Source: Acholeplasma hippikon (GTDB taxonomy: Bacteria > Bacillota_I > Bacilli_A > Acholeplasmatales > Acholeplasmataceae). Taken from it: a stretch of 64,000 nucleotides of DNA. A model generated the notes under the pieces. That model was not told the DNA's origin. It saw nothing but the letters and a program-made list of their open reading frames with translations, and did no database searches. Numbering within the stretch: the stretch's first letter is position 1; each line of letters begins with the position of its first letter. Positions 4,219-22,169 of the stretch are shown here, in pieces. Location of the stretch: the NCBI RefSeq assembly GCF_900660755.1, contig NZ_LR215050.1:1240001-1304000 (forward strand), read 5' to 3'. Both the position numbers and the translations under genes were made by a program.

Positions 4219-4620
4219 ATGATTAACTATATTAAAAATGATTTTGACGGTGGCATGACTTATCCAAATAAAGAACTAATAGAACGTAGTGCACTAGGTG
4301 TGATAAAAAAGTTATGTATGAGAAACTTGTTTACATTAGAAGGCTATTTGAAGGCAACTAAAAAAACTTTTAATCTTGGTTATAAGGTTCCAATTTATAT
4401 TAATGACCATCATATTTTTATTTACACCAAAGCATTAAAAGACTATGATAATATATTTATCAATTATACTGAAATTAAAGAAGTAAAAAGTAATAAATTT
4501 GGAATTGAAATTACCTTTAATAATCTAGAAAAAATAGAGGTGAAGTTATCAATTAAAAATTATAAAAGATTAGTCATGACTATATTTAGTTTATATAAAT
4601 ATAAAGAAAGTTTAGTATGA
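4219..4620 (+). CDS. ComK-like protein
   Basis: Start chosen at 4219 (133 residues) because GAGG lies 9 bases upstream; a longer reading to 4108 would run back over the divergent gene without a ribosome site. The protein follows the layout of the competence regulator ComK: a basic segment LEGYLKATKKT (like the YAGRKAGT region), then a VPIYINDHHIFIYTKAL strand pair (like PIMVDPSNQIFLFPTLS), a region ending FINYTEIKEV (like WISHVHVKEF), GIEITFNN and KVKLSI-type strands (like TEVTFSNGK..LPIS), and a final helix. It is shorter than Bacillus ComK (192 residues), missing parts of both ends. DNA binding is inferred from family resemblance only. No competence genes are seen in this window. Confidence 0.7.
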   Translation: MINYIKNDFDGGMTYPNKELIERSALGVIKKLCMRNLFTLEGYLKATKKTFNLGYKVPIYINDHHIFIYTKALKDYDNIFINYTEIKEVKSNKFGIEITFNNLEKIEVKLSIKNYKRLVMTIFSLYKYKESLV

Positions 4621-4664
4621 ATGCATTTTCATCAATTATCATTAGATATTGTTCATCATACTCA

Positions 4665-4673
4665 TGTTATAAT
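4665..4673 (+). promoter_or_regulatory. Extended -10 promoter of the pgk operon
   Basis: TGTTATAAT is a TGn extended -10 about 40 bases before the pgk start. The -35 region at the expected spacing is weak (GATATT). The pgk ribosome site AAAGGAG lies at about 4699-4705. Confidence 0.6.
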
Positions 4674-4713: not shown

Positions 4714-5913
4714 ATGGCTAAAAAGACATTAAGAGATATCGAATTAAATGGCAAAAAAGTTTTAGTTCGTGTTGATTTCAACGTTCCATTAGCAAAAGAT
4801 GGATCAATCACAGACGATACTAGAATCGTTGCTGCATTACCTACAATTAAGTATGTAATGGAAAAAGGTGGAAAGGCAATCTTGTTCTCACACTTAGGAA
4901 GAATTAAGACTGCTGATGATAAAGCAACTAACTCAATGAGACCAGTTGCTGAAAGATTAAGCCAATTAATTAACAAACCTGTTAAATTTGTTGGTGAAAC
5001 AAGAGGGGCTGAATTAGAAGCAGCAATCAACGAATTACAACCTGGTGAGGTTTTAATGTTTGAAAACACTAGATTTGAAGACCTAGATGGTAACAAAGAA
5101 TCTAAGAACAATCCTGAATTAGGCGCATACTGGGCTTCATTAGGTGACGTATTCATCAATGATGCATTCGGTACAGCTCACAGAGCACACGCTTCAAACG
5201 TTGGTATTTCATCAAACATTAAAGAAGCTGTAGCTGGTTTATTATTAGAAAAAGAAATCAACTTCATCGGTGGAGCTTTAGAAAATCCTGAAAGACCATT
5301 CGTGGCTATCTTAGGTGGAGCTAAAGTATCTGATAAGATCGAAGTGATTACAAACTTATTAAACGTTGCTGATAAAGTATTAATCGGTGGCGGTATGGCA
5401 TTCACATTCCTAAAAGCTATGGGATATGAAGTTGGTAAATCATTAGTAGAATTAGATAAAGTAGATTTAGCTAAAGAATTATTAGCTAAGGCTAATGGTA
5501 AGATTGAATTAGGATTCGATGTTGTTACAGGTAAAGCATTCGCTGCTGATACTGAAACAAATATTAGAGACTTCGATAAGATCCCTGTTGATGAAATGGG
5601 ATTAGATATCGGACCTAAGACTATTGCAAGATTCAAAGAAATTATTGCCTCTGCTAAGACAGTTGTTTGGAACGGACCTCAAGGTGTATTCGAAATGCCT
5701 GCATTCGAAAACGGTACTAAACAAGTTGCATTAGCATTAGCTGCTATCAAAGATAAAGCAACTACAATCGTTGGTGGTGGTGACTCAGCTGCTGCAGTAG
5801 CACAATTCGGCTTAGAAGCAGACTTCTCACACATCTCAACTGGTGGCGGAGCTTCACTAGAATATCTAGAAGGTAAAGTATTACCAGGTATCGCTGCTGT
5901 ACACGAGATTTAA
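4714..5913 (+). CDS. pgk: Phosphoglycerate kinase
   Basis: A 399-residue full-length cytosolic enzyme of lower glycolysis that makes ATP from 1,3-bisphosphoglycerate and ADP. N-domain substrate motifs are RVDFNVPL (R19, D21, N23) and SHLGR (59-63). C-domain nucleotide motifs include [17 protein letters not shown] and [15 protein letters not shown] precedes the start. It is the first gene of an apparent four-gene operon with an XRE/cupin regulator (2 bases downstream), HPr and tpiA. In many Firmicutes pgk and tpiA follow gap; here gap is separate at 23530. Confidence 0.98.
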
Positions 5914-5915
5914 TC

Positions 5916-6461
5916 ATGGACATTGGCAAGAAGATTAGGGCGCTAAGATTAGGAAATAATTTGACTCAAGAAGAACTTGCTAATAGATTAGAACTTACTA
6001 AAGGCTACATATCTCAATTAGAAAATAATTTAACTTCTCCATCTATACAAACATTATTCGCAATACTAGAAGTATTAGGTGTAGAAACTCATGAATTTTT
6101 CTCAAAACCTGAAGACGAAGATGCAAAAATCGTATTCACAAAAGAAGATTTTTATGAAAAAGAATCTCCAGAACTAGGATCTTTAATCTCATGGATAGTG
6201 CCAAACGCCCAAAAATACGAAATGGAGCCTATCATGATTGAGCTTAAACCAGGCGGTCAATCAAGAATTGATGACTCCCATCCCGGTGAGGAGTTTGGTT
6301 ACGTTCTAGAAGGTCAAATTACACTAGTATTAAATAAAAAAAGATTTATAGTTAAAAAAGGCGAGACTTTTTACTACATGGCAAACAAAGAGCACTACTT
6401 GATTAACACCGGAGGAAGCGTTGCTCGTGTATTATGGATTTCTACGCCACCCATGTTCTAA
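5916..6461 (+). CDS. XRE-family regulator with C-terminal cupin domain
   Basis: The 181-residue protein has an N-terminal helix-turn-helix of the XRE/Cro type (residues about 6-60: IRALRLGNNLTQEELANRL ... KGYISQLENN). A small beta-barrel cupin follows (about 100-178), with HPGEEFGYVLEGQ and a GETFYYMANKEHYLIN block. This architecture belongs to ligand-sensing transcription factors such as the PuuR group; the ligand here is unknown. The start lies 2 bases after the pgk stop with only a weak GAG ribosome site, so translation is probably coupled to pgk. Its place between pgk and ptsH suggests control of glycolysis or its own operon, which is inference. Confidence 0.9.
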   Translation: MDIGKKIRALRLGNNLTQEELANRLELTKGYISQLENNLTSPSIQTLFAILEVLGVETHEFFSKPEDEDAKIVFTKEDFYEKESPELGSLISWIVPNAQKYEMEPIMIELKPGGQSRIDDSHPGEEFGYVLEGQITLVLNKKRFIVKKGETFYYMANKEHYLINTGGSVARVLWISTPPMF

Positions 6462-6480
6462 TAAAAAGGAGAAAAGAAAA

Positions 6481-6726
6481 ATGGAAAAAGAAATCATTAT
6501 TGGTTCTACTGCAGGACTACACGCAACATTAGCTGCTAAAGTTGTTCAAACAGCTTCTAAATACGCAGTTGATATTAAACTTTATTACAAAGATAAGACT
6601 GTAGATTTAAAGTCAATCTTAGGTTTAATGAGTTTAGCTGTTCCTAAAGGCGAAAACGTTAAGATTGTAGCTGCTGGTCCTCACGCAGAAGAAGCCATTA
6701 AAGAAATTGCTTCAATTTTAGGATAA
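6481..6726 (+). CDS. ptsH: HPr-like phosphocarrier protein with altered active-site loop
   Basis: Start set at 6481 because AAAAGGAG lies just upstream and the protein then matches HPr in length (81 residues); a reading from 6421 would only extend back into the previous gene. The fold and the regulatory site are intact: KSILGLMSLAV carries Ser45, the equivalent of the HPr kinase target Ser46. The catalytic loop reads AGLHATLAA instead of GLHARPAA: the phospho-accepting His14 is kept, but the conserved Arg and Pro after it are Thr16 and Leu17. The Arg is important for phosphotransfer from Enzyme I, so a purely regulatory role, as corepressor of CcpA (15702-16694), is plausible. It lies in the glycolytic operon rather than beside an Enzyme I gene. 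Confidence 0.92.
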   Translation: MEKEIIIGSTAGLHATLAAKVVQTASKYAVDIKLYYKDKTVDLKSILGLMSLAVPKGENVKIVAAGPHAEEAIKEIASILG

Positions 6727-6750: not shown

Positions 6751-7518
6751 ATGAGCAAAAGAATACCAGTTATTGCTGCAAACTGGAAAATGTATAAAAC
6801 TAAAGACGAAGCTTTAGCTTTTATCTTTGCAGTAAATGAAAAAGTACCTGCGCGTACTGAAGTTGAATCAATTATTTGTGCACCATCAATTTTATTAAAT
6901 CTTTTAGTTAAACGCGAAGGCGAAAACTTAAGAATTGGTGCTCAAAATATGCACTATTTAGATGAAGGTGCTTATACTGGTGAAAACTCACCATTACAAG
7001 TAAAATCTGCTGGAGCTGAGTACATCTTAATTGGTCACTCAGAAAGAAGATCTTACTATAATGAAACAGATGAAACAGTTAACTTAAAAATGGTTGCTGC
7101 ATTCAAACATGAATTAACCCCAATCCTATGCGTAGGTGAAGTGTTAAGTGAAAGAGAATCAGGAGCAACTAAAGCTGTTTTAGATCAACAATTAGAAAAA
7201 GCATTCTTAAATATCTCAGCTGAACAAGCTTTAAATACAATTATTGCTTATGAACCAGTTTGGGCTATCGGTACAGGTAAAACTGCTACTCCACAAATGG
7301 CTAACGAAACAATTAAAGACGTTCGTGCTAAAGTTGCTGCTTTATATGGTAACGAAGTTGCTGATGGCATCCGTATTTTATACGGTGGATCAGTTAAACC
7401 AGATAACATTAAAGTGTTATTAGAAGAATCAGACATCGATGGCGCATTAATCGGTGGAGCTGCATTAGATCCAAACAACTTCTTAGTATTCACAGAAGCT
7501 GCTTCAAACAAAAAGTAA
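6751..7518 (+). CDS. tpiA: Triosephosphate isomerase
   Basis: A 255-residue TIM barrel of normal length, interconverting dihydroxyacetone phosphate and glyceraldehyde 3-phosphate in the cytosol. The catalytic residues are visible: Lys13 in ANWKMYK, His96 in GHSERR and Glu168 in AYEPVWAIGTG. The phosphate-binding YGGSVKPDN lies near the end. An AAAAAAGGAA ribosome site precedes the ATG, 24 bases after the HPr stop. It closes the pgk operon, and a terminator follows at once. Confidence 0.98.
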   Translation: MSKRIPVIAANWKMYKTKDEALAFIFAVNEKVPARTEVESIICAPSILLNLLVKREGENLRIGAQNMHYLDEGAYTGENSPLQVKSAGAEYILIGHSERRSYYNETDETVNLKMVAAFKHELTPILCVGEVLSERESGATKAVLDQQLEKAFLNISAEQALNTIIAYEPVWAIGTGKTATPQMANETIKDVRAKVAALYGNEVADGIRILYGGSVKPDNIKVLLEESDIDGALIGGAALDPNNFLVFTEAASNKK

Positions 7519-7530
7519 TATAAAAAATAA

Positions 7531-7560
7531 AGTCCCTTTCTTTATGAAAGGGATTTTTTA
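7531..7560 (+). terminator. Terminator of the pgk-tpiA operon
   Basis: TCCCTTTC (7533-7540), loop TTTAT and GAAAGGGA are followed by seven bases dominated by T. Confidence 0.88.
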
Positions 7561-15585: not shown

Positions 15586-15618
15586 AAAACCGGTAAAATT
15601 ACCGGTTTTTTCTTTTTA
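15586..15618 (+). terminator. rplS terminator
   Basis: AAAACCGGTAA (15586-15596), AA loop and TTACCGGTTTT, then a T-run. Confidence 0.9.
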
Positions 15619-15649
15619 TGAAAAAGTTTTCATAATGTTTCATAATTTG

Positions 15650-15701: not shown

Positions 15702-16694
15702 ATGAGTAATGCTACTATTTATGATGTAGCTGGAGCTGCAGGTGTGTCACTTGCAACTGTGTCAAGAGTTTTAAACTCTCCAGAAAAAGTAAAAGAAGAA
15801 ACAAGAAATCGAGTTTTAAAAGTAATTAAGGAATTAGGATATCGTCCGAACGTTATTGCGAGAGGATTAGCTAGCCGTAAAACAACTACCGTTGGGGTTG
15901 TTATTTCAGATATTACAAGAGCTTCTGTTGCACAAATGTTAGGTGGTATTTCTGATATTGCAGCTAAGTATAACTACTCAATTAAATTGTTCACTATCCA
16001 TGAAGATACTGATATCTTAGATATGCTACAAAATATTGTTGCTGAACAAGTAGACGGTATTTTATATTTAAATGATGAATTAAATGAACGCGATGTTGAA
16101 TTAATTAAACGTATGTTCAATGAATCAAACATTCCATTCGTATTTGCTAACGTTGTAACTTCAAATCCAATTGTACCAACTGTATCAATTGATTATGTAA
16201 AAGCAGGTTATGAAATTACGAAGAAGATGATTGAAAAAGGATGTAAAGATATTTATCTTTTATCAACTGCAAGAAGATATAGTGTAAATGATAAAAAAGA
16301 AGAAGGTTATACAAAGGCGATGCTAGAAGCTAACCTTGAACCAAAAATCTTTAGAACATCTGGTGATACATCAATTAATAAACCTCACTTTGAAACATTC
16401 TTCGCGAATGTCAATGTAGATGGTGCAATCGCAGTTCGTGACTCAATTGCTGTTTCATTCTTAAACACTGCAATAAACAATGGTAAACGTGTACCTGAAA
16501 ACTTAAAGATTGCTGGATTCCAAAATACGAAGTATGCACAACTTTCACGTCCTGCATTGACTTCTATTGATATTCCAGTGTATGATATAGGTGCAGTTTC
16601 AATGAGACTGTTAACGAAGTTAATGCAAACTAAAGGTGTAGAAAATACAAGAATCGTATTACCTCACCATATCATTGAAAGAGAATCAATTTAA
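15702..16694 (+). CDS. ccpA: CcpA-type LacI-family catabolite regulator
   Basis: A 330-residue LacI/GalR protein. The helix-turn-helix TIYDVAGAAGVSLATVSRVLN is followed by the hinge YRPNVIARGLASRKT, nearly the CcpA consensus, and a periplasmic-binding-protein-like core (TTTVGVVISDI ...). The closeness of the first 70 residues to Bacillus CcpA, together with an HPr keeping the regulatory Ser (6481-6726), supports CcpA rather than a sugar-specific repressor. Its promoter carries a cre-like site. Other candidate sites in this window lie before gap, spx/pepF and the giant surface protein. The tyrS T-box begins immediately after its stop. Confidence 0.85.
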   Translation: MSNATIYDVAGAAGVSLATVSRVLNSPEKVKEETRNRVLKVIKELGYRPNVIARGLASRKTTTVGVVISDITRASVAQMLGGISDIAAKYNYSIKLFTIHEDTDILDMLQNIVAEQVDGILYLNDELNERDVELIKRMFNESNIPFVFANVVTSNPIVPTVSIDYVKAGYEITKKMIEKGCKDIYLLSTARRYSVNDKKEEGYTKAMLEANLEPKIFRTSGDTSINKPHFETFFANVNVDGAIAVRDSIAVSFLNTAINNGKRVPENLKIAGFQNTKYAQLSRPALTSIDIPVYDIGAVSMRLLTKLMQTKGVENTRIVLPHHIIERESI

Positions 16695-22152: not shown

Positions 22153-22169
22153 TTGAATACGTTTTCATT
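22153..22169 (+). promoter_or_regulatory. cre-like operator between pepF and spx
   Basis: TTGAATACGTTTTCATT matches the cre consensus WTGNAARCGNWWWCAWW at all positions but one (T for A at position 6). It lies about 30 bp upstream of each flanking promoter, so it could affect either gene. Confidence 0.5.

Follow-up and report, generated by a model that had tools for sequence, protein, structure and literature searches.

A second HPr encoded between pgk and tpiA in Acholeplasma hippikon and related Bacilli, a candidate Crh-like regulator

The closest described relatives of the protein treated here are the canonical HPr encoded by ptsH and Crh of Bacillus. Crh has the HPr fold and an unaltered Ser46 helix, but its phosphotransfer site is disabled, with Gln in place of His15 and with R17 and P18 kept. 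Its gene in B. subtilis adjoins whiA. In HPr, R17 is one of the main contacts with Enzyme I (EI) (PMC8509676; PMC3724859). On the side of CcpA, R304 touches the phosphorylated Ser46 of HPr (PMC4591507), and V301 is needed to bind HPr in a streptococcus, for which V301A is used as a non-binding variant (PMC8359418). Furthermore, HPr phosphorylated at Ser46 (HPr-Ser-P) binds GapA in B. subtilis and lowers its activity (PMC12445079). A literature search returned no account of an HPr paralogue beside pgk or tpiA, or of HPr in Izemoplasma or Tenericutes, which is a weak negative, as one search was narrow and another was swamped by proteomics papers.

The window, the whole stretch of 64,000 nucleotides analyzed, belongs to a genome of 1.47 Mb which is 99% complete. 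The open reading frame at 6481-6726 (+ strand) encodes a protein of 81 amino acids, MEKEIIIGSTAGLHATLAAKVVQTASKYAVDIKLYYKDKTVDLKSILGLMSLAVPKGENVKIVAAGPHAEEAIKEIASILG, and is preceded by the ribosome-binding site AGGAGA (6467-6472, +), read directly from the sequence. Here, HPr2 denotes this paralogue and its family, and HPr1 the canonical HPr of the same genome. Residue numbers follow the B. subtilis HPr scheme, in which His15 and Ser46 correspond to His14 and Ser45 of HPr2 itself. Judged by its profile scores, the product is a true HPr, matching Pfam PF00381 with 87.6 bits (cut-off 23) and NCBIfam TIGR01003 with 83 bits (cut-off 47.9), and its top PDB match is the HPr of B. stearothermophilus (E=4.5e-17). 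The predicted fold is likewise that of HPr: an AlphaFold model (pLDDT 82.7) was compared by Foldseek, and the best 40 matches are all HPr, Crh or NPr, with TM values of 0.66-0.81. The score against the HPr equivalog NF010352 is 81.6 bits, under the cut-off of 110, but this counts for little, as HPr1 (105.9) also falls just under it.

The canonical loop His15-x-Arg17-Pro18 reads HATL in HPr2. The original prediction, that GLHATLAA (R17T, P18L) replaces GLHARPAA beside an intact Ser46 region (DLKSILGLMSLAV) and that the His is kept, unlike in Bacillus Crh, was borne out by direct reading of the open reading frame. A sequencing error was considered as the source of the altered loop and ruled out, as GLHA followed by T, S, A, Q or another residue and then L recurs in 117 distinct sequences. 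However, HPr2 had been treated as the lone HPr of its genome, and this did not hold. A search with PF00381 revealed two HPr genes, the second of which, HPr1 (G000:C1:652556-652792), carries Ser46 and a loop of the canonical form, GLHARPAT. Both proteins share the fold, the PF00381 and TIGR01003 matches, His15 and Ser46. HPr1 differs by the presence of R17 and P18, is 41% identical to HPr2 and falls into a separate, strongly supported group.

Crh and HPr2 are alike in the fold, the disabled phosphotransfer site and the intact Ser46 helix. In addition, they share the stretch SI(M/L)GLMSLAV and Ala54, where HPr has Gly54, and both are a second copy beside a canonical HPr. HPr2 probably works like Crh. 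The way in which the site is disabled is different, as Crh has lost His15 and kept R17 and P18, whereas HPr2 has kept His15, lost P18 and usually also R17. By the features compared, HPr2 does not belong to Crh itself, as judged by His15, by the score of 64.8 bits against the Crh equivalog NF010354 (cut-off 123) and by gene neighborhood, since HPr2 lies between pgk and tpiA and Crh by whiA. No HPr gene was found beside whiA of the window's genome (L091 8676-9602).

In the phylogenetic tree, HPr2 forms one group with a support of 100/99 on a long branch apart from HPr1, and a topology in which HPr2 and HPr1 are joined was rejected (p-AU 0.012). HPr2 and Crh are also separate on the tree, but their forced joining was not rejected (p-AU 0.39). 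The family comprises 117 distinct sequences. Besides the window's order, it occurs in no fewer than three family-level groups of Bacilli, as a class-level search detected it in f16, f19 and f24, again between pgk and tpiA. These two genes flank HPr2 in 184 of the 189 retrieved loci, which partly repeat the same genome and hold the 117 distinct sequences. In a scan of named genomes with 80 loci, among them those of A. laidlawii, A. granularum, A. oculi and A. equifetale, pgk precedes HPr2 in all 80 and tpiA follows in all but one, which lies at a contig end. Among members of the genus, no other product of the operon is as well conserved as HPr2, with an identity of 94-96% compared with 77-84% for HPr1. 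Judged by gene order and phylogeny, HPr2 is an old paralogue family with a fixed place between pgk and tpiA.

Residue conservation was analyzed in an alignment of 118 rows (the 117 sequences and the reference). Position 18 is occupied by L in 109 rows, I in 4, M in 4 and K in 1, and position 17 by S (68), A (17), T (9), Q (9), E (5), K (4), R (3), L (2) and V (1). P18 is thus kept in none of the 117 sequences and R17 in three, so that the defining loss of the family is, by this alignment, that of P18, with R17 free to vary. Since R17 is a main contact with EI, HPr2 should dock poorly with it. Position 15 holds H in 110 rows, D in 6 and N in 2, i.e., the His is replaced in 8 of 118, and position 46 holds S in 117 rows and N in one. 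Position 54 is Ala in 118 of 118 rows, as in Crh, whereas most HPr have Gly. The only HPr2 with a replaced Ser46 (L301, Asn) belongs to G130, a genome carrying six HPr genes.

The operon starts with pgk (4714-5913, +), encoding phosphoglycerate kinase, and ends with tpiA (6751-7518, +), which encodes triosephosphate isomerase, lies directly downstream of HPr2 and is followed by a hairpin resembling an intrinsic terminator (7529-7557, +). Between pgk and HPr2 lies a gene for an Xre-type regulator with a helix-turn-helix and a Cupin_2 domain (5916-6461, +; PuuR-like, with Cupin_2 and HTH_3 matches). This gene was found in 107 of the 189 HPr2 loci and is absent from the examined loci of families f3, f24 and f19, except for one f3 genome (L081 = L185).

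A cre-like palindrome, ATGAAAATGCATTCAT, with one mismatch to WTGNNARCGNWWWCAW, is located 97 bases before pgk (4617-4632, -). A probable -10 box TATAAT, which follows TGT as in an extended -10, was read by eye at 4668-4673 (+). If this is the -10 box, the center of the cre-like site would be near -55. The activating cre sites of ackA and pta in B. subtilis also lie near -55. The TGTTATAAT promoter was not among the predictions of a sigma-70 scan, presumably as no fitting -35 is present. Cre-like palindromes, mostly 72-110 bases out, occur in 56 of 127 distinct pgk upstream regions, close relatives among which are not independent, compared with 1-6 in shuffled sequences. This suggests that the operon is controlled by CcpA or a relative of it, with HPr2 as part of a feed-forward loop; the owner of the sites could also be another regulator. 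A further cre-like palindrome, ATGAAAAAGTTTTCAT, is found before ccpA (15618-15633, +). Elsewhere in the window, the stretch at 22153-22168 (-) agrees with the cre consensus at every position (ATGAAAACGTATTCAA); it has an oligopeptidase-like gene (-) on one side and a Spx/ArsC-like gene (+) on the other.

The genome encodes an EI of 571 amino acids (TIGR01417, 600 bits) with its key residues kept, namely the His of KTSH, R296, R333, E431, C502 and others (E. coli numbering). HprK (TIGR00679, 358 bits) is also present, as is a CcpA homologue (15702-16694, +) in which the motif for contact with HPr-Ser-P, YDIGAVSMRLLTK, is kept, and with its intact Ser46 helix HPr2 is by sequence a candidate substrate of HprK and a candidate co-effector of CcpA. 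No EIIC of PF02378, the only EII family covered, was found in this genome or in six other genomes of the genus. According to a survey, most environmental Tenericutes have not retained PTS systems (PMC7301438). Judging by PF02378, it is plausible that the genome has no ordinary sugar PTS. The assumption that sugar PTS uptake is lacking was supported as far as the PF02378 EIIC is concerned, and a complete PTS was not seen, with EI and the canonical HPr present. Directly upstream of HPr1, at L001:1740-2135 (-), lies a gene for a small membrane-anchored protein whose likeness to the EIIB domain of a PTS permease is weak (NF007509, E=1.7e-5) and which lacks the catalytic Cys. It precedes HPr1 in many relatives, and its product is possibly a docking partner of HPr.

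Several relatives differ in their set of phosphotransfer genes. In the eight genomes of family f19, EI was not found in seven, in which HPr2 is the only HPr, and HprK is present in all eight. His15 is replaced by Asp or Asn with Ser46 intact in seven of the eight, six of them among the seven without EI. The f19 genome with EI (G251) carries the EI gene next to its own second HPr. In another family, G028 (85% complete) has no EI match and an Asp in place of His15. G204 lacks EI yet keeps the His. Of the 74 genomes whose status is known, those with EI retain His15 in 65 of 66 cases and those without it in one of eight, a correlation which goes back to two independent losses on the Pgk and TpiA tree, too few for significance. 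We read this as a core function of HPr2 that would need Ser46 and HprK, not His15, with the role of His15 tied to EI. HprK was found in 25 of 26 sampled genomes, the exception being G049, which has no HPr. In family f3, HPr2 is the sole HPr in five genomes, and the EI of this family (L219-L224, L229 and L233) is shortened in its N-terminal part to about 505 amino acids compared with 570, with the key residues intact. Another genome without an EI match (G080) has HprK and a sole HPr with the loop HAKP (L122, R17K).

The contact residues of CcpA vary along with the HPr genes. In five related genomes, HPr1 is missing and HPr2 occurs together with EI; Y296, D297, V301 and R304 of their CcpA are intact. 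Two genomes kept CcpA after the loss of HPr, EI and HprK, and their CcpA carries V301T (G039, L243) or D297E, V301S and R304Q (G049, L363). Contacts which are intact with HPr2 alone and decayed in HPr-less genomes support HPr2 as a partner of CcpA in the window's order. In families f19 (L373-L380) and f24 (L371-L372), the best CcpA homologue lacks R304, while Ser46 of HPr2 and HprK persist; CcpA can therefore not be the universal partner. As judged by these homologues, HPr2 of f19 and f24 must have another target, or a LacI-type partner which was missed by the search. Asp70 of CcpA, presumably the partner of R17, was tried as a marker of co-evolution and proved uninformative, being invariant in the window's order, even in genomes with HPr2 alone. 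In G039 and G049, CcpA appears to work without its co-effector.

Taken together, we consider it rather probable that HPr2 is a Crh-like regulatory HPr from the glycolytic operon, which would act through HprK and Ser46 on CcpA in a feed-forward manner and be insulated from EI. At high levels of glycolytic intermediates, HprK would phosphorylate Ser46 of HPr2, and in Acholeplasma and its relatives P-Ser-HPr2 would bind CcpA as co-effector. CcpA would act at the cre-like site before pgk, whose position would be one for activation, so that a feed-forward loop on glycolysis would result. HPr2, produced together with glycolytic enzymes, would thereby serve as a signal of glycolytic flux. The loss of R17 and P18 would weaken the docking of EI and leave HPr2 mostly free for HprK, with HPr1 serving EI, and His15 would keep a secondary function, dependent on EI, in genomes that still possess this enzyme. 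In the B. megaterium complex, R17 is in contact with CcpA as well, so that its loss could also weaken the binding of CcpA. It also counts against a purely Ser-based HPr2, which would have no need for His15, that this residue is nearly invariant where EI exists. The original prediction that HPr2 may act only through its Ser agrees with the seven EI-less relatives, which keep it as their sole HPr together with HprK, but it is doubtful for the window's genome in view of the 65 of 66 EI-positive genomes with His15. Its proposed role as CcpA cofactor finds support in the HprK and the CcpA contacts of this genome, whereas CcpA is unlikely to be the sole partner family-wide.

The retained His15 could also point to a switch with two inputs, in which EI would slowly phosphorylate His15 and HprK would phosphorylate Ser46, the former modification being regulatory where EII permeases are few or missing. 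This is a real possibility, though not a probable one. It is in line with the retention of His15 in nearly all genomes with EI and its loss, in two independent events, in seven of eight genomes without, as well as with the five related genomes in which EI is accompanied by HPr2 as the only HPr and has intact key residues where examined. However, R17 and P18 are central to the EI interface, two independent losses are beyond a statistical test, G204 keeps His15 without EI, and the His is perhaps kept for protein contacts, not for phosphorylation. His15 and the presence of EI would equally be expected of an ordinary PTS phosphocarrier tolerating the loop changes, but the canonical HPr in the same genome and most relatives, the lack of a PF02378 EIIC together with the rarity of the PTS in environmental Tenericutes, and the retention of HPr2 in EI-less genomes make this very improbable. 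Virtually no weight is given to a decaying, non-functional duplicate, for which the loss of two textbook catalytic residues might be taken to speak: the gene is conserved across several families, is the most conserved of its operon within the genus and has an intact ribosome-binding site in an intact operon. Decay and chance were both refuted by this conservation.

A serious alternative by our analysis, although on balance a somewhat unlikely one, is a direct action of HPr2 on lower glycolysis. HPr2 would act mainly via metabolic enzymes or transporters, not CcpA, with P-Ser-HPr2 binding either glycolytic enzymes whose genes are in or close to its operon, such as Pgk, TpiA and GAPDH, or an ABC transporter for sugars. 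The invariant setting between pgk and tpiA argues for such a target, as does the loss of the CcpA contacts in f19 and f24 with Ser46 and HprK kept. The GapA effect in B. subtilis is a precedent which would account for the link between an HPr and triose-phosphate glycolysis, but it is modest, and the protein studied was canonical HPr, not a paralogue encoded in an operon of this kind. The place in the operon may mean no more than co-expression, and in the window's order the CcpA contacts are kept, even with HPr2 alone, and decay where HPr is lost. Tentatively, and as a less likely view than the Crh-like regulator favored above, HPr2 might be a third kind of HPr besides ptsH-encoded HPr and Crh, which would sense flux via HprK and Ser46, use His15 in an EI-dependent role outside transport and, where the CcpA contacts are lost, have a target other than CcpA, plausibly an enzyme of lower glycolysis.

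As an HPr which would stand outside the transport chain and is fixed in a glycolytic operon, HPr2 offers a handle on the question why PTS-poor mollicutes and their relatives keep EI, HPr and HprK. The genomes which have HPr2 and HprK but no EI, together with those which lack HPr and have decayed CcpA contacts, allow the functions of Ser46 and His15 to be told apart without mutants. HPr2 may represent a second route to a Crh-like regulator, through the loss of P18 and R17, not of the His. The family is experimentally approachable, as the cultivable Acholeplasma laidlawii is among its carriers.

Additional HPr2-like copies outside the pgk-tpiA operon were observed in two genomes, with the loops HASL (L099, G050) and HSKK (L127, G113), and both fall inside the HPr2 group on the tree. 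Finally, the complete genome CP017948.1 contains the operon twice in near-identical form about 99 kb apart (L148 and L149), perhaps due to a duplication or an assembly artefact.
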